Source: an uncultured Pelagibacteraceae bacterium (GTDB lineage: Bacteria > Pseudomonadota > Alphaproteobacteria > Pelagibacterales > Pelagibacteraceae). From it: a stretch of DNA of 64,000 bases. The notes below the pieces were generated by a model that did not search any database, was not told the DNA's origin, and saw only the letters and a list, made by a program, of their open reading frames with translations. Below are positions 52,883-63,685 of this stretch, in pieces; position 1 is the stretch's first letter, and every line of letters begins with the position of its first letter. The position numbers were made by a program, and so were the translations under genes. The stretch is from positions 30,722 to 94,721 of the forward strand of contig CACONR010000003.1 of the NCBI GenBank assembly GCA_902628565.1, written 5' to 3'.

Positions 52883-53569
52883 ATGAAGAATTTTATAAAT
52901 ATAGGAATTCCCAGTAAAGGACGATTAAGAAAAGATGTTTTGAAAATTTTTAATAAAAAAAAATTGAGACTTATTTCTGAAAGAGGAGAAAGGGACTTAA
53001 TTGGATCAATTAAGAATAAACGAAATATAAAAATTCTATATTTGCATGCGCGAGAGATTATTGAGAGATTAGGAGATGGCTCTTTAGATATTGGTTTCTC
53101 TGGTTTTGATTTACTTAAAGAAAGTGAAATTAATGTACAAAGTAAAATTAATGTAATCAAAAAATTTGATTTTGGAAAAGCTAATTTAGTAGTGGCAATA
53201 CCCGACCCTTGGATTGACGTTCAAACTATAGCTGATCTTGAGGAAATTGCTTTTGAATTCAGAGATAAAAAGAAAAAGAGGTTAAGAGTTGCAACTAAAT
53301 ACCCAAATTTAACTAGAGATTTTTTATTTTCAAAAGGGGTTACGCAATTTAAGCTAGTAGATAGTTTAGGTGCTACAGAATCTTATCCTTTCACAGGTTC
53401 AGCTGAACTCATTACTGATATAACCTCTACAGGTGAAACTCTTAAAGCAAACAATTTGCGTATTTTGAAAGATGGAGAAATTTTGAGATCTCAAGCCTGT
53501 ATCTTTATCTCAAAAAAAAATAGTAAAAAAAAAGGATTAAAAAATTTTATAAGATTACTTTCCAAGTAA
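52883..53569 (+). CDS. hisG: ATP phosphoribosyltransferase (short form)
   Basis: NIGIPSKGRLRKDVLKIF, VATKYPNLTRDFL, GATESYPFTGSAELITDITSTGETL. Confidence 0.94.
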   Translation: MKNFINIGIPSKGRLRKDVLKIFNKKKLRLISERGERDLIGSIKNKRNIKILYLHAREIIERLGDGSLDIGFSGFDLLKESEINVQSKINVIKKFDFGKANLVVAIPDPWIDVQTIADLEEIAFEFRDKKKKRLRVATKYPNLTRDFLFSKGVTQFKLVDSLGATESYPFTGSAELITDITSTGETLKANNLRILKDGEILRSQACIFISKKNSKKKGLKNFIRLLSK

Positions 53570-53683
53570 TTTATCTTTAAAATAAATAAGAATAATTTTA
53601 ATTATATCTAAATTTCTTATTACTGCGTAAAAAGTGATTATTATAATCAATACAAAAAAAATTTTAATTAAGCTAATTTCCAT
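53555..53683 (-). CDS. 42-aa membrane peptide coupled to the DUF4338 gene (not in supplied ORF track)
   Basis: Reverse-complement read: MEISLIKIFFVLIIIITFYAVIRNLDIIKIILIYFKDKLLGK*; start overlaps the last codons of the 53673-55790 CDS. Confidence 0.6.
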   Translation of the reverse strand: MEISLIKIFFVLIIIITFYAVIRNLDIIKIILIYFKDKLLGK

Positions 53684-55790
53684 AAATTGTTTTTAATTTC
53701 TTTAAATTATTTTTTTTGTTATCTTTATCAAAAAATAGTTGATTATGAATATATTCAGGACCAAGTGAAATTAATTTTTTGAGAGTTTCCTCTCTTTTAA
53801 TTCTTTTTATTAGCCATCTATTAATCCATGCCTTTGTAATCTCTTTGACGTTTGCAGTCTCGATAGAATTATAAGGTTTCGAGAATTTCATCAAGGAATT
53901 CAAAATATCGTTTTTATAAAACATAATATAATTTTTTCTTTTAATATTGTGTGCAAAAAAATCATCTATTTGAATATTTGATTTTTTTTTGTCTTTTAAT
54001 AATTCAATTCCTTTACGTATGTTTCTGAGTTTTGGTGAAGTTCCTTCACCAAATTTGTAATTTACCTCAACACGACCTAATGTTTTTCTAGTTAAAATGC
54101 TCAATAATTTATTTGTGTAATTGTGAAAATGATATACTCCCTGTCCTTTTGTCTTTTGTGACTTGTTATCTTTATGAACTTCTTGCCAAATAATATCATT
54201 TTTTAAATATGGATAATCTTTTTTTAAAAACTTAATTCTATTATATTGGCTTGAGGATACACCGTAGAGGCTAGTAGTTGTTAAACACATCAAATTAGCA
54301 TCTCGATAGACAGGCTCACCTTTATTACTAGAGGCAATTATTGCAGGCTTTTTGTATTTTTTTGAATTGTATCTGGTTCTAAAACATTCTCTTACCTCCG
54401 TTGATGCCATAAGAGTGGCTATTAATTTTCCTCCAATTAATTCAGAATAAGGAGCCACTGAACCACAAACAGAAACATCCATTATATTTTCAGCCAGAGC
54501 CTTCATTCTTATCTCTCTTAAAACTCTAGAAATCATTTCATTGCCCTTTTTATTTTTTGGGTGAATTAATGATGCATAGCCTCTTGAAGGATTTTCTTTG
54601 AGATTTACCTCGTTGAAATATTTTCTTGTTTCCAATAATCTTGCTAATTTTATAGCTCTTTTCTTTTTAAAAAGAGACTTTTCCGACTCTCTAGCAAAAT
54701 CTATATTTTCTAAATTATGGGTTTTGTAAGTTTCATCCTTTTCATTATCTAGATCTCTATGTCTTTTTTCTAAATTTTCTTGATAAAGGTCATTTAGTCT
54801 AACAATAACTTCATTGTTTGGAAATTTAATCAATTCACTATTTAAAAAATCAATATCATCTTTCCTTAGAGAGTTGATCTGTTCTTCTAAACTTTTGAGC
54901 ATTGACTCAACAACAAATTCAACTTTAATTTCTTTTTTATAAATTCTGTCTCTTATAATTTTCTCATCGGTCCAACCTATAGCGTCGTCTCTTGCTTGGT
55001 CAGCTAATGCTGCACTCCTTAACATTGCTATACCTATGATGGGTTTGTTGGGTCTTGCCGCATTTCTAATCAATAAAGGAAAACTCTTACCTGGGACAGT
55101 TTTATACTCACTAGACCATGTAAGTCTAAAATACTTCCAAATATCTGTTAATCTTAAGCCAGTGTAAGGACACTTGAGTTCTTCCTCTTTAAACAAAGGA
55201 TCATCTGGAAAGCACACCACTATCTCGGGTTGAATTATTTTCTCGAGGAGAGATATTTTTTTTTGGCTCTCTAGAGAGGAGATATCTTTAAAGATTTCAG
55301 ATAATTCCTTCCCGTTATCAATAAGATTTAGGATTGATTTTTTCTCATTCCCAACACTCTTTGGTCTTTCCATTCGCTCTATAAAATGTTGAACTTCATA
55401 ACTTTCGACCTGTTTATTTCTATTTATCAATTGAACTTTTCTCATTTGGTCTTTTATTTCATCAGTTGAATTACCCTGAAATGTTTTGTCATATTCAGGT
55501 TTAGCTATAACAAAACCCATATCTTCAAGTGAAATACTTACATTCCATCTAGCTTCAACTAAATCAGCTATTAAAGAGCAGGCTGCCTGAAATCTTATTT
55601 TCTCTGCATTATGATGACAAAATGTTTTTACGTGATCACCCATATTACTAGGATTAACAATATCTATTTGTTCTCTAAGACTATTAATTAAATTTTCTTT
55701 AGAACTTAGGTTATCGACAAATATTTTCCTCAATAACCTAAGTTTATGTATTGATAGTCTAGGTACAAATTTAAGAGGTTTAAGCACCAC
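53673..55790 (-). CDS. DUF4338 (DruA-like) protein, 705 aa
   Basis: C-terminal half: VSVCGSVAPYSELIGGKLIATLMASTEVRECFRTRY...IASSNKGEPVYRDANLMCLTTTSLYGVSSSQYNRIKF...GQGVYHFHNYT, recalled as the DUF4338/Druantia DruA signature. Confidence 0.75.
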   Translation of the reverse strand: MVLKPLKFVPRLSIHKLRLLRKIFVDNLSSKENLINSLREQIDIVNPSNMGDHVKTFCHHNAEKIRFQAACSLIADLVEARWNVSISLEDMGFVIAKPEYDKTFQGNSTDEIKDQMRKVQLINRNKQVESYEVQHFIERMERPKSVGNEKKSILNLIDNGKELSEIFKDISSLESQKKISLLEKIIQPEIVVCFPDDPLFKEEELKCPYTGLRLTDIWKYFRLTWSSEYKTVPGKSFPLLIRNAARPNKPIIGIAMLRSAALADQARDDAIGWTDEKIIRDRIYKKEIKVEFVVESMLKSLEEQINSLRKDDIDFLNSELIKFPNNEVIVRLNDLYQENLEKRHRDLDNEKDETYKTHNLENIDFARESEKSLFKKKRAIKLARLLETRKYFNEVNLKENPSRGYASLIHPKNKKGNEMISRVLREIRMKALAENIMDVSVCGSVAPYSELIGGKLIATLMASTEVRECFRTRYNSKKYKKPAIIASSNKGEPVYRDANLMCLTTTSLYGVSSSQYNRIKFLKKDYPYLKNDIIWQEVHKDNKSQKTKGQGVYHFHNYTNKLLSILTRKTLGRVEVNYKFGEGTSPKLRNIRKGIELLKDKKKSNIQIDDFFAHNIKRKNYIMFYKNDILNSLMKFSKPYNSIETANVKEITKAWINRWLIKRIKREETLKKLISLGPEYIHNQLFFDKDNKKNNLKKLKTIYGN

Positions 55791-55799
55791 TGTTTTAAT

Positions 55800-57719
55800 C
55801 TAATTTATTTTATTATTCTCTTCTTCATTATCAATAGGCAATGGATCATCCATGTCATTTGAATTGTTTTCATCCTCTTGGTCTCTTTTCTTTTTAAATC
55901 GAGCTTTAATAGATATCTGTTCACTGATTTGAGCAAGAAATGTTGATAGAAAATCTCTTTCCCCCTCTGTTCTAGTGAAATAAATATCAGCCCAAGATAA
56001 CCAAAAATCATCCCAATGTTTTTCTGACTCTTCATTGCTCTTGGAAGAAGCATAAACATTTTTAAAGTATCTATGATCCTCGTTTAAATAAACCTCGATA
56101 GTTCTACCATGCTCTTCAAACTCAACCATAGGGCCCTTTTGGCCTTTGTTAACTCTAGTTATTATATAAGGTCTATCTCTATATTTTTCTACATAACGTG
56201 TCTTTGCTTGTTCAAGTGTGATATCTTCATCTGCAGCTATCTGTTTTTCTTTTTCCTCTTGTTTCTTTTTAGCTAGATCTGTTCTATCTTGAAACTCACT
56301 AGTTGCAGTGTCAGCACCTTGATTAAGTCTTGCCTGCTCTTGATCAATTTCTGCTTGGGTTTTTTGATCAATACCGTCTTCAGCTTGCTGTTTTGCAAAA
56401 GTCTTTATTTCTTTTGACAATAATTCACCTTCATCTTCAACAGCATTTTCAAATTCTCTCATTTTTTGAAAGACGTTGTTTTTTTCAAGTGCCTTCATTA
56501 TATCACTGCTAGGCTGAACATATTGTTTGGTTGTATTTACGTCAAAGTGTTCGTCTAATACTGGGTGAAAGTCTATTTCGCATTTAACATATCTAGTATT
56601 GTTTTGGAAATTGTAACCCATTCTTTTCACATCCATTTTTCTACCAAGTCTTCTAAATATTAAACCATTATTTGATTTAATAGATTTAAAACGAAAACTT
56701 TTTTCATCTAGTTTAGCTTTACCTTCAACAGCAGCTTTCCAGGTAGGCATGCTGGGTTTTGCAGGTTTACCATCCTCATCTTTTTCACAAAAAGCGAACA
56801 CTCGAGGTAATCTAGAAATTCTAATTTTCAAGTTAGCTCTTTTTTCTCCACCGTGCTCTTCCTCTAGTGGGATAGTATCTTCGTAATAATGACTTGCATC
56901 AGATGGGCAAACTATATCATTAAATTTCCAAGAGTATTCTTTCATTCCTGTAGATACAAATAATGGATCACATGGAGTCACCTTTGTGTCATTCACATAA
57001 ATATTCGTAGCTTGTAAGAAGCTTGTGTAAGTCTCACCGAAATCAGATAGTAAATCATTTGTTAATTTATCTAAAGCAACAGGCTTTATTCTATCTAATT
57101 CCTCAAGATGAATTATTGTTCCACTTTTCATTTTGCTTACATCAATACTTCCCAATCTACTTCTGCTTTGAAGCACATCAGGTAACTTTGTTTTTTCAGG
57201 TTTAGATAATAATTTAGACAAATCAGGTTCACTTGAGCCTTCTATCGAAGTAAAATCAAATGTAACTTTATGCCAATCTCCATCTGACGCCTTTGAGTAT
57301 AAATGATATTTCTTTGACATACTTATACAAGCCGTCGGTAGTCCAAAACCATATTTACCAAAACCTTTTCTGCTATCTTGTCTATGGGTACCGCCCCATG
57401 TCACTGCCACAGTTAACATGTCAGGTATCATTCCGTGACCATCATCAATTATAAAAACATCACTAACTCTATTTTTTTTCTCTAAATCCATCAGTGCATA
57501 ATAAATATTTCTTGCACCTGCTTGCATTGAATTATCATTTAATTCGTTGAAAGCATAGGCACAACTCTTGTATTTTATGTCTCTCATGCCTGACACTAAT
57601 GCATCTACAAATACTGGGCCGCTTAGATTACGCATTTTTCCTGATTTTAAAAAATCTAGTTGGCTCTTTAATTCAGGGTTTTCAATAAAGTCTTTTTGTA
57701 TTTCTAATTCAGTTTTCAT
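55800..57719 (-). CDS. GHKL (HSP90/MORC/MutL-type) ATPase, 639 aa
   Basis: Bergerat motifs: ALNDNS-like NELNDNSMQAGARNIYYAL, FIIDDGHGMIPDML, SRKGFGKYGFGLPTACISMSKK; acidic C-terminus. Confidence 0.88.
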   Translation of the reverse strand: MKTELEIQKDFIENPELKSQLDFLKSGKMRNLSGPVFVDALVSGMRDIKYKSCAYAFNELNDNSMQAGARNIYYALMDLEKKNRVSDVFIIDDGHGMIPDMLTVAVTWGGTHRQDSRKGFGKYGFGLPTACISMSKKYHLYSKASDGDWHKVTFDFTSIEGSSEPDLSKLLSKPEKTKLPDVLQSRSRLGSIDVSKMKSGTIIHLEELDRIKPVALDKLTNDLLSDFGETYTSFLQATNIYVNDTKVTPCDPLFVSTGMKEYSWKFNDIVCPSDASHYYEDTIPLEEEHGGEKRANLKIRISRLPRVFAFCEKDEDGKPAKPSMPTWKAAVEGKAKLDEKSFRFKSIKSNNGLIFRRLGRKMDVKRMGYNFQNNTRYVKCEIDFHPVLDEHFDVNTTKQYVQPSSDIMKALEKNNVFQKMREFENAVEDEGELLSKEIKTFAKQQAEDGIDQKTQAEIDQEQARLNQGADTATSEFQDRTDLAKKKQEEKEKQIAADEDITLEQAKTRYVEKYRDRPYIITRVNKGQKGPMVEFEEHGRTIEVYLNEDHRYFKNVYASSKSNEESEKHWDDFWLSWADIYFTRTEGERDFLSTFLAQISEQISIKARFKKKRDQEDENNSNDMDDPLPIDNEEENNKIN

Positions 57720-57736
57720 TTTTTTTCCTTTCTTAA

Positions 57737-57758
57737 GAGTGGCTCATTTGAGCCACTC
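57737..57758. promoter_or_regulatory. Perfect 10-bp inverted repeat just upstream of the GHKL ATPase start
   Basis: GAGTGGCTCA-TT-TGAGCCACTC in the gap between sigma-like and GHKL genes. Confidence 0.6.
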
Positions 57759-57773
57759 ATTGTTTAAGTTTTT

Positions 57774-58385
57774 TTAAAAGTTCATGTTACCAGAGTAATA
57801 TCCCTCTAGAACCTTCTGAGCTTTATTATAAATGGAGTCTTTTAACAAAAAAGCTGTTCCAACACTTACTCCAAGTGTAGTTGCAGCTTTTTTAATTGAG
57901 TGATTATTATACATAAATAATCCCCAAGCCTTCTTTTCTAAAAGATTAAAAGTTTTAAAGAGAGCTTTGTGTAACTTTCTTTTTACATCGTAGCAAAATT
58001 CAAAATTTTGAATATAGCCACTACCCTTGATCTTATTTTGCTCCATTATATTTTCTTTAACCGAAGTTTCTCTAATATCTGCGGTTCTTTTTGATGCATA
58101 AAAGTTCCTAAGATGATTCTTGAGATAGGTTAAAATAGGATCACTGGATTTTTTAGATCTCTCTAAATCAAATCCTTGCATCCATTTTTTTGCCCATACT
58201 TCTGTAAAGAAGCCTTGAGCTAGATCTTCGACACCATCTACAGTCCTTTTATAGCCTGCATAAGCATCAAGTTTTCTTATGCTTTTTTTAATTTTAGGCA
58301 AATATTGATTATACAATAGCCCAAAATTTGAACTCAGCAATTCACACTGAGAAGCACTTATTTTTGCGTTCGATGATTGTGTCAT
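57774..58385 (-). CDS. sigma-70 family (ECF-like) RNA polymerase sigma factor
   Basis: Region-2-like TVDGVEDLAQGFFTEVWAKKWMQGFD...ILTYLKNHLRNFYASKRTADIRE; C-terminal HTH-like NHSIKKAATTLGVSVGTAFLLKDSIYNKAQKVLEGYY. Confidence 0.7.
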   Translation of the reverse strand: MTQSSNAKISASQCELLSSNFGLLYNQYLPKIKKSIRKLDAYAGYKRTVDGVEDLAQGFFTEVWAKKWMQGFDLERSKKSSDPILTYLKNHLRNFYASKRTADIRETSVKENIMEQNKIKGSGYIQNFEFCYDVKRKLHKALFKTFNLLEKKAWGLFMYNNHSIKKAATTLGVSVGTAFLLKDSIYNKAQKVLEGYYSGNMNF

Positions 58386-58494
58386 CGTAACTCCTTTCTA
58401 TTTAATGGGTCACGAGACAAAGAATTCTGTATTCATAAACTGATCTACTGGGGTCACTGTAGGATCCCCATTCAAAGTCCATGACCTTGTTTTT

Positions 58495-58521
58495 TATTAA
58501 TATAAACAATTTATATTAATA
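58495..58521. repeat. Perfect 12-bp inverted repeat, 3-nt spacer
   Basis: TATTAATATAAA-CAA-TTTATATTAATA between the sigma-like and PD-(D/E)XK-like genes. Confidence 0.6.
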
Positions 58522-58590
58522 GGTAAAGCAGATTAACCTGAATTACCTATTTATATATGTAAGATTTTTCTGAAAATGTTCGATTTTTTA

Positions 58591-59142
58591 TTATTTTTTT
58601 TTAACAATATAGAGAACTGCTTTTGCTTGAAAAACGGGATGTTTTGAGCCTATTTTGCTGAATACTAAATAAATTAATATAACAGGCTTTCTACTATTGA
58701 TTGTATAATTATAACACTGAGATGCATGTTTTTTTAAAAGTGATTTTTTAATTTGATTTGTAACTTTCAATTCTACACAACAATTTTTAAAACATTCATC
58801 ATTAATGTTCAATTTATTAACTTTAAAGTCAGGGTAAACAACAGTTTTAATATGATCTTTTTTAATTTTTAAGCTTTTTAAATTAATGATTTTTTTTATC
58901 ATTAGAGAATTAAAGGTTTTAATGCCAATTTTAACAAGAGAATTTATTGGCTTTGCATTAAACTTGACAATTTTTCCAGGTAAATCTTTAGTTTTTAAAT
59001 AATAAAGATCATTAGCATAAGTTTCAATAGAAGTAATTGATAAATCTTTATCTTTATTCTCTAGATAAAATCTCAGAGCTTCCTCAATTACTTTACCCCT
59101 AATCATACAAGCACGAGAATTTTTATTAATATACCAACTCAT
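58591..59142 (-). CDS. putative PD-(D/E)XK nuclease-fold protein, 183 aa
   Basis: GKVIEEALRFYL helix, VYPDFKVN...CCVELKVTNQ...HASQCYNYT...KPVILIYLVFS: PD...ExK arrangement with downstream Q/Y helix. Confidence 0.55.
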   Translation of the reverse strand: MSWYINKNSRACMIRGKVIEEALRFYLENKDKDLSITSIETYANDLYYLKTKDLPGKIVKFNAKPINSLVKIGIKTFNSLMIKKIINLKSLKIKKDHIKTVVYPDFKVNKLNINDECFKNCCVELKVTNQIKKSLLKKHASQCYNYTINSRKPVILIYLVFSKIGSKHPVFQAKAVLYIVKKK

Positions 59143-59214
59143 TATTTATTTATGTGAATTAAAATTAATTTTATTCAAATTGAATTTTTTTTTTAAAAGT
59201 TCACATAGATAGGT

Positions 59215-59316
59215 ATGAGCAGTCACATGTTTATTTTATTATGTCTCCTTTCTTTGTTGTTGGTTAATGTGGCTGCTCAAATAATCAAAAAAGAAAAATT
59301 TTTTAAAAAGAAGTAA
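59215..59316 (+). CDS. 33-aa TM peptide ORF (not in supplied track)
   Basis: [33 protein letters not shown]; immediately upstream of the next ORF. Confidence 0.45.
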   Translation: MSSHMFILLCLLSLLLVNVAAQIIKKEKFFKKK

Positions 59317-59317
59317 A

Positions 59318-59518
59318 ATGAAAAAAAAATATTGTTCAAATCCAATATGTAATAATGAAATTGAGGGAATGGGTAACAACCCACAACCTCTTTTAGATTT
59401 AAAAGTCACAGACTCTGTATGTGACACATGTAATGAGGAATTTGTTATTCCTGCAAGATTAGGTGAACCAGTTTCTGAATTTATAAGATTGATGATTTTA
59501 GGATTTCAAAAAAATTAA
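59318..59518 (+). CDS. small zinc-ribbon-like protein
   Basis: Two cysteine pairs CSNPIC...CDTC in 66 aa. Confidence 0.6.
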   Translation: MKKKYCSNPICNNEIEGMGNNPQPLLDLKVTDSVCDTCNEEFVIPARLGEPVSEFIRLMILGFQKN

Positions 59519-59522
59519 TTTA

Positions 59523-59621
59523 ATGTTTAGTTTTATATGGCAAATTTTGACGAGTATAATTTTGGTAACAATTTTAGGATTTGGAATATTTTATTTAGGA
59601 AAATTATTTTTAGGAGTTTAA
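59523..59621 (+). CDS. 32-aa TM peptide ORF (not in supplied track)
   Basis: MFSFIWQILTSIILVTILGFGIFYLGKLFLGV*; stop overlaps the next ATG (TAATG). Confidence 0.45.
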   Translation: MFSFIWQILTSIILVTILGFGIFYLGKLFLGV

Positions 59622-59638
59622 TGAAAAAAAATTTATAT

Positions 59639-59720
59639 GCTCAAATGGCGAAACAGTTAGACGCGACAAGAAAAACTTGTTCCACTGCGGTGGGTACCAG
59701 TGCAAATCTGGTTTTGGGCA
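59639..59720 (+). tRNA. tRNA-Leu-like (class II) element with shortened anticodon arm; possible tRNA pseudogene or tRNA mimic
   Basis: GCTCAAA/TTTGGGC acceptor, D-stem GCG/CGC, ACAAG-AAAAA-CTTGT anticodon arm (15 nt), variable arm CCAC-TGCG-GTGG, T-arm ACCAG-TGCAAAT-CTGGT, discriminator A, no encoded CCA. Confidence 0.55.
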
Positions 59721-59780
59721 CTATAGATGACTATGTCTTGCGGGGAGAGATAGCTCCTCTTCCTGCAAAAAAAGGATTAG

Positions 59781-59948
59781 ATGAAAAAAATAGATAAAAT
59801 TACTGAAATAAGAATTGAAGAAGTAATAGATGAAGAAAATAATGAGAATTATTACTGGGTTTATTTTGTTCGAAATGGGAAAATAGAAATTATAGGTAAG
59901 TCGTCTGAAAAACCGCAGTGTTACAGACAGATAGCAATATATCAATGA
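59781..59948 (+). CDS. 55-aa hypothetical protein (not in supplied track)
   Basis: MKKIDKITEIRIEEVIDEENNENYYWVYFVRNGKIEIIGKSSEKPQCYRQIAIYQ*; ATGA overlap with the next gene. Confidence 0.55.
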   Translation: MKKIDKITEIRIEEVIDEENNENYYWVYFVRNGKIEIIGKSSEKPQCYRQIAIYQ

Positions 59949-60223
59949 ACTATTTAATTAAAGAAAAGCTTAAGGATCGATTAGAATATTGTTTGGATTG
60001 GAGAAGAGATACAGAGTTATACTTAGTATCTGTAGATCTAACTGACACAGTAAATAATAGATATTACGAGAGAAGACCTTTATTGCGTTTTTTATTAAGA
60101 ATTTTTAACTTGCCAATAAGCACTTATTATTTTTTTAAATTTCTAAGAATAAGAAGAGATCTAGAAAAAAATGCTATTGAGATAGACTATATTCACAGTC
60201 AATTAGAAAAAAGAGAAGATTAA
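59945..60223 (+). CDS. hypothetical protein, ~92 aa
   Basis: MNYLIKEKLKDRLEYCLDWRRDTELYLVSVDLTDTVNNRYYERR...; start at 59945 favoured by the ATGA overlap. Confidence 0.6.
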   Translation: MNYLIKEKLKDRLEYCLDWRRDTELYLVSVDLTDTVNNRYYERRPLLRFLLRIFNLPISTYYFFKFLRIRRDLEKNAIEIDYIHSQLEKRED

Positions 60224-60224
60224 T

Positions 60225-60431
60225 ATGAAAAAAAGCAATGTAATTATTTTTTCTGAACACTTTATTAATAGAAGAATTATCAAAGAGGGAAAGATTTATA
60301 GTAATGAAATTGTTGGTGAATGTTGTGAGTGTAGCGGACTGGGCATCAGCACTGAAACTGGTTCAGAGATGATATGCATCGGCTGTGATGGCACCGGTAT
60401 AATTTATTACGGTAAAGAAAATATAAATTGA
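60225..60431 (+). CDS. small DnaJ-type CxxCxG zinc-finger protein
   Basis: CCECSGLGISTETGSEMICIGCDGTGII: paired CxxCxG motifs. Confidence 0.65.
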   Translation: MKKSNVIIFSEHFINRRIIKEGKIYSNEIVGECCECSGLGISTETGSEMICIGCDGTGIIYYGKENIN

Positions 60432-60463
60432 AATATAAAAATAGGAGTATAACGTAGAGAATC

Positions 60464-61519
60464 ATGGATGTAATAATAGTAGGATTAGTAGTAGTTGTTT
60501 TATTGGTAAATATAGCTTTATTTCTAAAGTTCAAAAGCAAACCTAATGATGAGGATAATAAAGATCAAGAAGTCCTTAAAATTAAGGACGATATTAATAG
60601 TCTTAAAAATTCATTAGGTGAATCATTTAATAGTATGAGCAAAGAGGTTGCTAAAGATATGACAGCAGCCCTAACTAAAGTAGATGAAAAAGTTGGTAAT
60701 TTTAATCAACAAGTTCAATTACTAAATCAAAGCCAAGAGGGGATTACCAAAATTTTAGCTGGGGTTAAAAAATATGGAACTTTAGCAGAGTATTCTTTGG
60801 GAGCTCTTATGAAAGATTTGCTACCTACTTCTCAATTTATGACCAATGTAAAGATGAAAGAGGACACTAGTGAAAATGTTGAATTTGCAATTAAACTTCA
60901 AGGAGATGTTCTGGTACCAGTGGACTCGCATTTTCCTGCTGAAAAGTTTAAAGCTATCACTGATGCCCATGAGGCAGATGATAAAAAGGCAGCAGCAGAT
61001 GCTAGGACTAAATTAGCAAGCGCATTTAAAGCAAAAGCAAAAAGTGTTAATGAAAAATATATCGTTCCACCAAAGACCACTGATTTTGCAATTGTCTATG
61101 CACCAACTGAGAGTCTTTATAAAGAATTAACAGAATATCAAGATCCCAGCACAAAGGAATTATTAACCCAAGAATTAATGAAAAAGTATAAAATTGTAAT
61201 TTGTGGTCCTAATACTCTATCAGCTTACTTGCAATCTTTACATATGGGCTTTCAATCATTGAAAGTGCAAAAAGGCGCTACAGAGATTTATAATCATCTA
61301 AAAACAATCACCACTAGATTTGGTAAGCATTTTGATAATATTATTGTGCTTAGAAAAAAACTAGAAGAGGCCATGAGTGTGGTTGATAAGTTTGGAACTG
61401 ATGCAAGATCAATTAGTAGAACTTTAGAAAATATCAAAGATCCCGAACAGGTTGAGAAAGCTGTTCAAACTGAAAACGTAGAAAAATTTGTCGAAAGAAA
61501 TAAACAAGCAAAAAATTAA
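60464..61519 (+). CDS. rmuC: DNA recombination protein RmuC family
   Basis: N-terminal TM plus coiled coil, KKYGTLAEYSLGALMKDLLP, QGDVLVPVDSHFPAEKF, DFAIVYAPTESLYKEL, GPNTLSAYLQSLHMGFQSLKVQ. Confidence 0.9.
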   Translation: MDVIIVGLVVVVLLVNIALFLKFKSKPNDEDNKDQEVLKIKDDINSLKNSLGESFNSMSKEVAKDMTAALTKVDEKVGNFNQQVQLLNQSQEGITKILAGVKKYGTLAEYSLGALMKDLLPTSQFMTNVKMKEDTSENVEFAIKLQGDVLVPVDSHFPAEKFKAITDAHEADDKKAAADARTKLASAFKAKAKSVNEKYIVPPKTTDFAIVYAPTESLYKELTEYQDPSTKELLTQELMKKYKIVICGPNTLSAYLQSLHMGFQSLKVQKGATEIYNHLKTITTRFGKHFDNIIVLRKKLEEAMSVVDKFGTDARSISRTLENIKDPEQVEKAVQTENVEKFVERNKQAKN

Positions 61520-61556
61520 TTTCTTTTTTCCAAAAATACAGATTATAAGAAATCAC

Positions 61557-62243
61557 ATGCGTTGGAATAAGAAATACAACTATCCTACATCATCAAGAGC
61601 TACTGAAGATGGAATAAGAAGATATGTTTTGGGAGAAACAAAATTACCAAGCGTGACATCAATACTTGATGCAACTAAGTCTGAGGAAGATAAAGCGGCG
61701 TTAGCGAATTGGCGTGAAAGAACAGGTTATAAAGAAGCAGAGGCAATAACTAAAGCAGCTAGCAGCCGAGGTTCTCAGATGCATAGTTATTTGGAGTCTT
61801 TTCTTTTGGGCAGAGAAAATTTGAGCTTCTTTGAAGACAATGAACAGTATAAAAAAATGGCAAAAGAAATCATAGATAAAGGGCTTATGAATAGACTAGA
61901 GGAAGTATATGGCGTCGAATGCACAATGCATTATCCTGAAAAATATGCCGGCACAGCAGATTGTGTTGGGTTATACGAGGGAAAAGAAACAATTATTGAT
62001 TTTAAACAATCTAATAAACCCAAAAAAGTTGAATATATAGACTCATGGTTTTTACAAACAGCAGCTTATTCTCTAGCACACAATGTGGTTTATAATTCAA
62101 ATATCAATGCTTGCGTTATTCTTGTTTGCACAGTAGATAATTTGTTTCAGGAATTCAAAATTCAGGGCCCTGAATTAGTCACTTATCAAAATTTATTTTT
62201 GGGTAGATTAAAAAGATTTAATGAAATGAGTAATATAAGTTAG
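61557..62243 (+). CDS. RecB/MGME1-like PD-(D/E)XK exonuclease
   Basis: RGSQMHSYLESFLLG, YAGTADCVGLYEGKETIIDFKQSNKPKKVEYIDSWFLQTAAYSLAHN; ATG at 61557 chosen (MRWNKKYNYPTSSR). Confidence 0.8.
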   Translation: MRWNKKYNYPTSSRATEDGIRRYVLGETKLPSVTSILDATKSEEDKAALANWRERTGYKEAEAITKAASSRGSQMHSYLESFLLGRENLSFFEDNEQYKKMAKEIIDKGLMNRLEEVYGVECTMHYPEKYAGTADCVGLYEGKETIIDFKQSNKPKKVEYIDSWFLQTAAYSLAHNVVYNSNINACVILVCTVDNLFQEFKIQGPELVTYQNLFLGRLKRFNEMSNIS

Positions 62244-62248
62244 CAAAA

Positions 62249-63685
62249 ATGGATAAAATTGTAATTTACGATACAGAAACAACTAATAGTACTATTTGGG
62301 GATCAATAATTGAAGTAGGTGCTGTCGTTGTTGATAAAAACCTTAAAGAGATTGGAAAATTGAATATTAGGGGTCGAATGCCAGAAGGAGAGGTTCCCAG
62401 TGCCAAGGCTTTACTTGTTAATTCAACTAGTATTGATTTATTAACCAAAGGTAATTATTCACATTATGAATTTTTAGGTGCTGTTGAAAATTTTTTTACA
62501 AAATGTGCTCCAGCGGTATTTATGGGTTGGTCAAATCTTAATTTTGATAGAAGAATGTTTCACTTTAATTTCTTTAAAGGTAATCGGTATCCTTATGCTA
62601 CACACTCATCACCGAATAGTGAACATGACGGTTTGCACATAGCTAGAGCAGCCCAAACATTAAACTCAGAGACCTTAAAAACAGAACTAACAGAGGCAGG
62701 AAATCCAAGCCTTGCCTTAGAATCTTTGTCAAGAATGCAAGGTTTTGACACTTCAGCTAGCCACACAGCTTACGTAGATGCACAAAACTCACTAAAGGTT
62801 CTTAGAATTATAAAAGATAAGCATAAAGAAAATTGGGATACATTTCTAAAAACATCAACAAAAACCAGCGTAGAGACATTTTTAAAAAATGAAGGTATCT
62901 ACTCAATATTTGAAAATGTGAAAGGTAGAAACATGATGTATCTTACTAGTACGTTGCATCCAAATCATTGCTTTCATCCATCTTATGCATCTTGGGGATA
63001 TGTTTGGGACTTAAGAAGAGATCCAGAACCATTATTAAATCTACCAGTAAATCAATTACGAGACGTATTAAAAAAATATAGCCCTAAGGCTTTAAGAGTT
63101 TTAAAAACAAATAAAGCTCCAGTAATTTTAGATAAACAATTTGCTCTTAAGCAAAAACCCTATTCAGATTTGGATTTAGCAACAATTCAAAAAAGAGCTA
63201 AACTTGTTAGAGAAAACGAAAATTTTTGTAAAAATATTCAAGTTATAAATAGAGAAGCTGCAGAGGAAAAGGAGCAAACAAAAACTCAAGAAGATTTATT
63301 ACCAGAGGAAACTCTTTATGAAAAATTTATTCCAAATAAAGATACTGCATTATTTAAAACTTGGCATAGCTCATCTTGGGAAGACAAATTGAGATTATTA
63401 GATAAGTTTACAGATAAAAGATGTAGTTGGTTTGGCCAAAAAATTATTTATCAAGAGGCACCACAAATTTTACCACCTGATCTTTACAAAAATATCAAAA
63501 GTGAAATTGCCAGAAGAATTTTAAGTAAAAATAAAGAAAAGTGGCAAACAATTAATATGGCTTATACTGAAATTGATTATTTAAGAGATCAAGCCTCAAA
63601 TAGAGATGATGAGGAAGAACTAAAAAAACTAGATGAAATAAACGAATTTATAATGTCAATTGAAAAAAAATATGAAATTGCCTAG
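62249..63685 (+). CDS. DEDD exonuclease, exodeoxyribonuclease I-like
   Basis: IVIYDTETTNSTIWGSIIEVGAVVV, FMGWSNLNFDRRMFHFNFF, SHTAYVDAQNSLKVLR; ExoI-like C-terminal region. Confidence 0.85.
   Translation: MDKIVIYDTETTNSTIWGSIIEVGAVVVDKNLKEIGKLNIRGRMPEGEVPSAKALLVNSTSIDLLTKGNYSHYEFLGAVENFFTKCAPAVFMGWSNLNFDRRMFHFNFFKGNRYPYATHSSPNSEHDGLHIARAAQTLNSETLKTELTEAGNPSLALESLSRMQGFDTSASHTAYVDAQNSLKVLRIIKDKHKENWDTFLKTSTKTSVETFLKNEGIYSIFENVKGRNMMYLTSTLHPNHCFHPSYASWGYVWDLRRDPEPLLNLPVNQLRDVLKKYSPKALRVLKTNKAPVILDKQFALKQKPYSDLDLATIQKRAKLVRENENFCKNIQVINREAAEEKEQTKTQEDLLPEETLYEKFIPNKDTALFKTWHSSSWEDKLRLLDKFTDKRCSWFGQKIIYQEAPQILPPDLYKNIKSEIARRILSKNKEKWQTINMAYTEIDYLRDQASNRDDEEELKKLDEINEFIMSIEKKYEIA

Follow-up and report, generated by a model that had tools for sequence, protein, structure and literature searches.

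A sigma-linked MORC-DruA gene block, apparently an unnamed Druantia relative, at an insertion hotspot of SAR11 bacteria

Organization of the block

The window analysed here is a 64,000-nucleotide stretch of contig CACONR010000003.1 (assembly GCA_902628565.1) from an uncultured SAR11 bacterium of the Pelagibacter family, whose genome (G000) is 892 kb in length and 74% complete. The minus strand of the window carries a block of four open reading frames (ORFs) in series (53673–59142), coding for a long-form DruA (DUF4338) protein, a MORC-type GHKL ATPase, a sigma-70-like protein and a PD-(D/E)XK nuclease-like protein (Table 1). The DruA and ATPase genes are separated by 9 nt, and the ATPase and sigma-like genes by 54 nt. 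This is the co-oriented arrangement that had been predicted from the sequence alone, although the start proposed for the block (53555) falls within hisG, to the left of the DruA ORF.

A second SAR11 genome has the same four genes in identical order with a DruA of 38% identity, so the grouping is not due to chance. Every one of the 12 SAR11 loci whose upstream sequence is complete has the nuclease gene, as does L019, and in the 12 the order of the nuclease, sigma-position, ATPase and DruA genes is identical. The conserved association of all four proteins named in the original prediction is thus supported.

Table 1. Features of the block and its surroundings in the window.
Feature	Coordinates	Strand	Basis
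druA-like gene, long form, 705 aa, GTG start	53673–55790	-	PF14236, PDLC00001
MORC-type GHKL ATPase gene, long form, 639 aa	55800–57719	-	HATPase_c_3, MORC2 by profile
Sigma-70-like gene, 203 aa, regions 2 and 4 recognisable	57774–58385	-	TIGR02985, FliA 1rp3
Structured 5′ leader of the sigma-like gene, within 205 bp of intergenic DNA	58386–58520	-	Folding energy against shuffles
PD-(D/E)XK nuclease-like gene, Cas4/RecB type, 183 aa	58591–59142	-	Motif, Foldseek
Inserted stretch, 6.9 kb, from hisG (52883–53569) to rmuC (60464–61519)	53570–60463		Missing there in most SAR11 genomes

Properties of the encoded proteins

The DruA protein matches Pfam PF14236 (E=3.3e-23; 82.7 bits, cut-off 27) and, over residues 61–688, the PADLOC DruA model PDLC00001 (E=2.3e-138; 460.6 bits), which bears out its assignment to DUF4338. 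Invariant residues in a 59-sequence alignment include C442-G443, P447-Y448, G454-K455, Q515-Y516, W655 and R658-W659, and the AlphaFold model is of good quality (predicted local distance difference test score, pLDDT, 87.3; predicted template modelling score 0.87). DUF4338 has been described as a GNAT-like domain (PMC10853773). GNAT acetyltransferases (TmcA, Elp3) appear among the insignificant rows of the DruA fold search and were not used as evidence. The DruA model also matches giant-virus proteins in BFVD, from Faunusvirus (2.4e-9) and Yasminevirus (3.5e-7).

The ATPase matches Pfam HATPase_c_3 (E=2.1e-15), and its nearest solved structures by profile, with E values from 3e-12 to 7e-3, are MORC2 (3e-12), MORC4 (1.9e-6), MORC3 (3e-5), SMCHD1 and MutL (6e-3). 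The N-box (E59/D62/N63), the DxGxGM and GxxGxG motifs and K398-Q399 are invariant among 24 sequences. With its motifs intact and MORC proteins closest, the protein falls within the MORC/paraMORC GHKL class, as had been proposed.

Profile searches with the 183-aa nuclease-like protein find no family match. Its PDF..ELK..Q...Y motif is invariant and the catalytic motif is kept in both SAR11 clades, whose versions match each other by profile (hhalign 96%, 1.5e-9). The best Foldseek matches of its model (pLDDT 87) are ACE1/Cas4, SSO0001 Cas4 and AddB (probability 0.98–1.0, E about 1e-3 to 5e-3). Its fold core and its catalytic residues place it in the PD-(D/E)XK superfamily, in agreement with the earlier assignment.

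On its own the sigma-like protein has weak matches to TIGR02985 (1.1e-4) and PHROG 1740 (1.4e-4). An alignment of SAR11 sigma-like proteins (A4) matches FliA (1rp3) at 2.4e-4, on region 4, and an alignment of non-SAR11 sigma-like proteins (A8) over its full length (hhalign 91%). Relatives encoded at the same position score above the Pfam Sigma70 cut-offs, for region 4 in L050 and L061 and for region 2 in L076. Both regions are recognised by profile in the clade of the window, and the earlier call of a sigma-like factor holds.

An insertion hotspot between hisG and rmuC

The block is rare in SAR11, being present in 2 of 147 genomes and in 6 of 397 Pelagibacteraceae genomes. It had been reasoned that housekeeping-like conservation at one locus throughout nearly all SAR11 genomes would speak against a defence system; the sporadic distribution is not of that kind. 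The hisG-rmuC distance is 17–194 bp in 27 sampled SAR11 genomes lacking the module, compared with 6.9 kb in the window, and the empty site was read directly in L100 and L101. The block occurs at rmuC in both orientations (L018 is opposite to the window), and its sequences diverge strongly. Genus g4 does not have hisG beside rmuC; there the block again adjoins rmuC in L036, and this site is empty in the relative G018.

In two genomes the hisG-rmuC site is occupied by another island (rmuC to hisG; L097:1702–9742 in G533 and L098:1710–9188 in G543). It encodes an AAA_15 ATPase, a 389–433-aa protein, a 314–327-aa protein, NurA and HerA, with a GIY-YIG-like gene in one of the two, and looks like another defence module. 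The 327-aa protein was considered as a sigma factor and dropped, since its resemblance to sigma factors is faint (FliA at E=0.12).

Relatives are also found on plasmids. An IMG/VR search with the DruA alignment yielded 11 relatives (carrier contigs include L102, L103 and L106); the same database gave no close relatives with a single DruA protein as query, and phage records contained no DruA. The distribution and siting of the block are those of mobile, defence-like cargo.

Other genes near the block are of less certain relevance. Between the nuclease gene and rmuC (59318–60431) are small plus-strand ORFs of 66, 101 and 68 aa, two of them Cys-rich. ARAGORN calls an odd 83-nt tRNA-Phe(aaa) at 59639–59721 within the inserted stretch, overlapping an ORF, which is possibly a tRNA-like remnant. 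Next to rmuC (61488–63685) are genes for a phage-type exonuclease (PHROG 298, 3e-46) and an ExoI-like protein (PADLOC RTasSbcB, 1.4e-56); both are also found beside empty SAR11 sites and are therefore not part of the module.

The GHKL-DruA pair and its relationship to Druantia

Relatives were collected by scanning one genome per species and keeping the 80 loci most similar to the window DruA out of 227; together with earlier hits these gave 84 non-redundant loci. They include Alpha- and Gammaproteobacteria, Acidobacteria, Actinobacteria, Bacteroidetes, Verrucomicrobia, Deinococcota (Calidithermus) and Myxococcota. In 72 of the 84 the DruA gene is directly preceded by a codirectional GHKL gene at a distance of no more than 100 bp (median gap 9 bp), which makes the GHKL-DruA pair the true core of these loci.

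Many GHKL-DruA operons also carry DruD and DruE (e.g. L087, with DruD1 at 2.6e-100 and DruE1 at 1906 bits), so the ATPase is not a substitute for DruE. The original prediction had suggested that the ATPase plus a sigma factor replaces this helicase. That part does not stand, the pair being widespread and occurring together with DruD and DruE, whereas the conserved block without DruE does. The prediction had also overlooked the hotspot, the leader RNA and how widely the loci are spread among taxa.

The GHKL proteins have two forms, a long one of ~600–690 aa, which is a separate group on the GHKL tree, and a short one of mostly 485–570 aa. Loci with the short form only have Druantia genes in 23 of 35 cases and a sigma-like gene in two of 35. 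Among the 22 loci with the long form only, none has Druantia genes (DruD and other Druantia-linked clusters) and ten have a detectable sigma-like gene. All 17 loci with both forms have a sigma-like gene, four of them with Druantia genes. The long-form ATPase is thus present in 27 of the 29 sigma loci. Fisher tests, uncorrected for relatedness, give p=1e-8 for the association of the sigma-like gene with the long form and 7e-7 for that of the long form with absence of Druantia genes. What sets the SAR11-type version apart is the long form of the ATPase together with a linked sigma-like gene, in most cases in the absence of Druantia genes.

No match to the 1879-aa DruE1 (E<=1e-5) was found in seven genomes carrying the block (the 74% complete G000, G144, G403 and four other SAR11 genomes), in keeping with the earlier statement that no DruE-like helicase is visible. 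PADLOC, proposed as a further check, matches DruA and finds no Druantia component (DruB, DruC or DruD) among the products of the remaining three genes. Druantia type I (DruA, DruD and DruE in PADLOC) shares the long DruA, and the GHKL-DruA pair sits in DruD1/DruE1 operons. In contrast, the SAR11 block has no DruE, DruD or other Druantia genes nearby and no DruE genome-wide, and has a sigma-like gene, a leader RNA and a Cas4/RecB-type nuclease instead. Since it shares DruA and lacks both DruE and DruB–DruD, we regard it as related to Druantia and do not file it as Druantia.

Different partner sets of DruA were also seen. In L087 (8250–21569), L082, L084, L064, L071 and L081 a MORC-type ATPase gene is directly upstream of the DruA gene together with DruD/DruE-type genes; no Druantia model in PADLOC 2.0.0 matches this GHKL partner, and the MORC-type ATPase is a probable unlisted component of Druantia type I. 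In L091 (12085–18194), L021, L033, L038, L042 and L073 the GHKL-DruA pair is near two proteins of ~1000 aa, one a SNF2-type helicase similar to DpdE/DrmD and the other without a family. In L008 (7818–17647), L009, L049, L059, L068, L083 and L085, from haloarchaea and bacteria, a long DruA (~1200 aa in some) is found with an FtsK-like translocase and one or two further proteins, mostly without a GHKL gene.

The sigma-like gene and its leader RNA

The sigma-like gene directly adjoins the ATPase or DruA gene in 29 loci, and one more such ORF is found in L074, at a distance of 3.7 kb. Because the model used in the search was built from adjacent genes, their own adjacency is a given; apart from the L074 ORF, the hits that the search added are adjacent as well. 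In SAR86 and a relative (L070:7578–11788 and L075:7631–11791) a 122–123-aa protein resembling a lone helix-turn-helix replaces the sigma-like gene before the GHKL-DruA pair.

A gap of 143–215 bp precedes the sigma-position gene at every complete SAR11 locus, in genomes that are otherwise compact, and a gap of similar size is present in most other groups. In the window this region (stretch 58366–58520) is predicted to fold at -38.0 kcal/mol (z=-3.7), with none of 200 shuffled sequences as stable. Alignments of three leader families compared with column shuffles give rough z-values of -8.5 (the window clade), -4.6 and -2.0. The strand beside the ribosome-binding site in the window clade can pair with this site or with a strand further upstream, and the near-equal energy of these two alternative folds suggests a switch-like arrangement.

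The third family (Alphaproteobacteria and Acidobacteria) has a strongly conserved block of ~116 nt with two helices; one sequence has both partners of an outer pair changed (G-C to A-U), and three have a change in one partner. A covariance model of this family (R1) recovers its ten training loci as well as L063 (2.8e-9), L007 (1.2e-5) and L006 (1.5e-4), and every match is at the start of, and immediately upstream of, a sigma gene. It matches once per genome or plasmid in nine records used as a positive control, and has no match in 385 alphaproteobacterial genomes. In L006 and L007 the sigma gene is inverted and located downstream of the DruA gene, and the leader has moved along with it; the leader therefore belongs to the sigma gene.

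Rfam 15 has no match at E<=1 in window positions 53000–61000 and finds only tRNAs in L029, L031 and L014. No leader was found in viral contigs by exact pattern, nor in plasmids by blastn, although blastn missed two plasmid copies that R1 detects. Upstream of the third leader family (the c14 group), ~40–70 bp before the leader block, L029, L038, L040, L042, L046 and L025 share a stretch of the form CGCAC-about 15 nt-CTATC(n)TGG; it resembles a non-standard promoter, possibly one recognised by the module's own sigma factor.

Similarities to other systems

MORC/paraMORC restriction neighbourhoods (Iyer, Abhiman and Aravind 2008, PMC2292703) likewise have a MORC-type GHKL ATPase beside a nuclease of the restriction-endonuclease fold and are mobile and hotspot-associated; the SAR11 block differs in having no SFII helicase or methylase beside it, and the text of that paper mentions neither DUF4338 nor sigma factors. 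The N-terminal GHKL part of the ATPase matches MzaB of the MZA system (NCBIfam 1.8e-9, PADLOC 2.1e-7) at a score of 36.5 bits, far below the cut-off of 850, and no other MZA gene was matched in the block. In the Shedu protein VcSduA a GHKL ATPase also works with a PD-(D/E)XK nuclease, and defence requires both activities (PMC12137116). However, VcSduA is a single fused protein with DUF4263, whereas the SAR11 block has separate genes, a nuclease of the Cas4/RecB type, and DruA and a sigma-like protein in addition. In the open-access papers searched (subscription papers were not covered) no description was found of a combination of DruA or Druantia, a GHKL/MORC protein and a sigma factor, and the block is apparently an unnamed relative of Druantia.

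Interpretation of the block

The block is probably a mobile, Druantia-like and defence-like module at a SAR11 hotspot, in which a MORC-DruA pair and a nuclease are under the control of a sigma-like factor and an RNA leader. The MORC-type ATPase and long-form DruA would form the core and act jointly on DNA, with DruA as the obligate partner. Prokaryotic MORC proteins have been proposed to close on or loop DNA (PMC2292703), and the ATPase dimer may close on, loop or compact invading DNA in this way. Cutting in SAR11 would most likely be carried out by the Cas4/RecB-type nuclease encoded just upstream. The dedicated sigma-like protein would control expression by recruiting RNA polymerase to the module. 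Since its mRNA begins with a structured leader, we infer that the module is probably held at low expression until a signal related to infection turns it on.

Several observations weigh against this interpretation. In the second SAR11 clade the protein at the sigma position (c29) is not tied to sigma factors by profile, and no sigma-like gene was found in the roseobacter loci L041, L043 and L055. Searches of the PDB with DruA, by sequence and by fold, return nothing significant. The associations across loci are not corrected for shared ancestry and are drawn from the best 80 of 227. Occlusion of the ribosome-binding site exceeds that of shuffled leaders in only six of 34 leaders at the 5% level, and the riboswitch-like reading is therefore weak; the means of leaders and control genes differ little (+0.08 against -0.03; p=5e-4, uncorrected for relatedness). 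Occlusion was accordingly discarded as a general property of the leaders and is kept as a faint indication only.

A bolder form of the sigma- and RNA-controlled module is a tentative suggestion and rather unlikely: the block may represent an unnamed class of immunity in which a leader RNA senses phage, and a sigma-like factor made from an mRNA with this switchable leader turns on the MORC-DruA machine and nuclease upon infection.

The sigma-like protein could instead be a DNA-targeting subunit whose regions 2 and 4 bind promoter-like or melted DNA of the invader and pass it to the MORC, DruA and nuclease proteins. The sigma proteins are very divergent, with another protein in their place in one clade and a short one in SAR86, so that loss of ordinary promoter use seems to be tolerated, and in many cases a few bp are all that separate the sigma gene from the ATPase gene. 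However, it keeps its own conserved leader even when inverted and looks like a separately regulated regulator, and we consider a targeting role unlikely.

Still less likely is a decayed or satellite Druantia type I that has lost DruB–DruE and borrows a helicase from elsewhere in the genome. SAR11 genomes are small, and the pair accompanies DruD and DruE in many genomes. But a DruE-like gene to borrow is missing from the seven genomes searched, all genes are intact and remain conserved where DruA identity ranges over 34–87%, with invariant catalytic motifs, and the long ATPase form has its own place on the tree. The set lacking DruE and including a sigma-like gene also occurs in Calidithermus, an Opitutia metagenome-assembled genome and Roseivivax.

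A DNA repair or chromosome-maintenance module is very improbable: ATPases of the MORC and MutL kinds and nucleases of the RecB type have roles in repair, and rmuC and the ExoI-like gene next door are DNA-maintenance genes, but the block is present in 1.5% of related genomes, at an insertion-deletion hotspot, in both orientations and on plasmids, and its close gene partners are known from Druantia.

Few cells in the ocean are as abundant as SAR11 bacteria, whose phage resistance is poorly known. For them the preferred reading, a mobile defence-like module, provides a concrete, rare example together with a chromosomal hotspot in which more may be found. For Druantia, the constant MORC-type ATPase partner of the long DruA, which the PADLOC models do not list, bears on how these systems work. 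The dedicated sigma-like gene and the new single-copy leader RNA family are tied to a defence-like operon across phyla, and the switching-on of such systems thereby becomes directly testable, also in the cultured carriers Roseivivax, Leisingera and Calidithermus.

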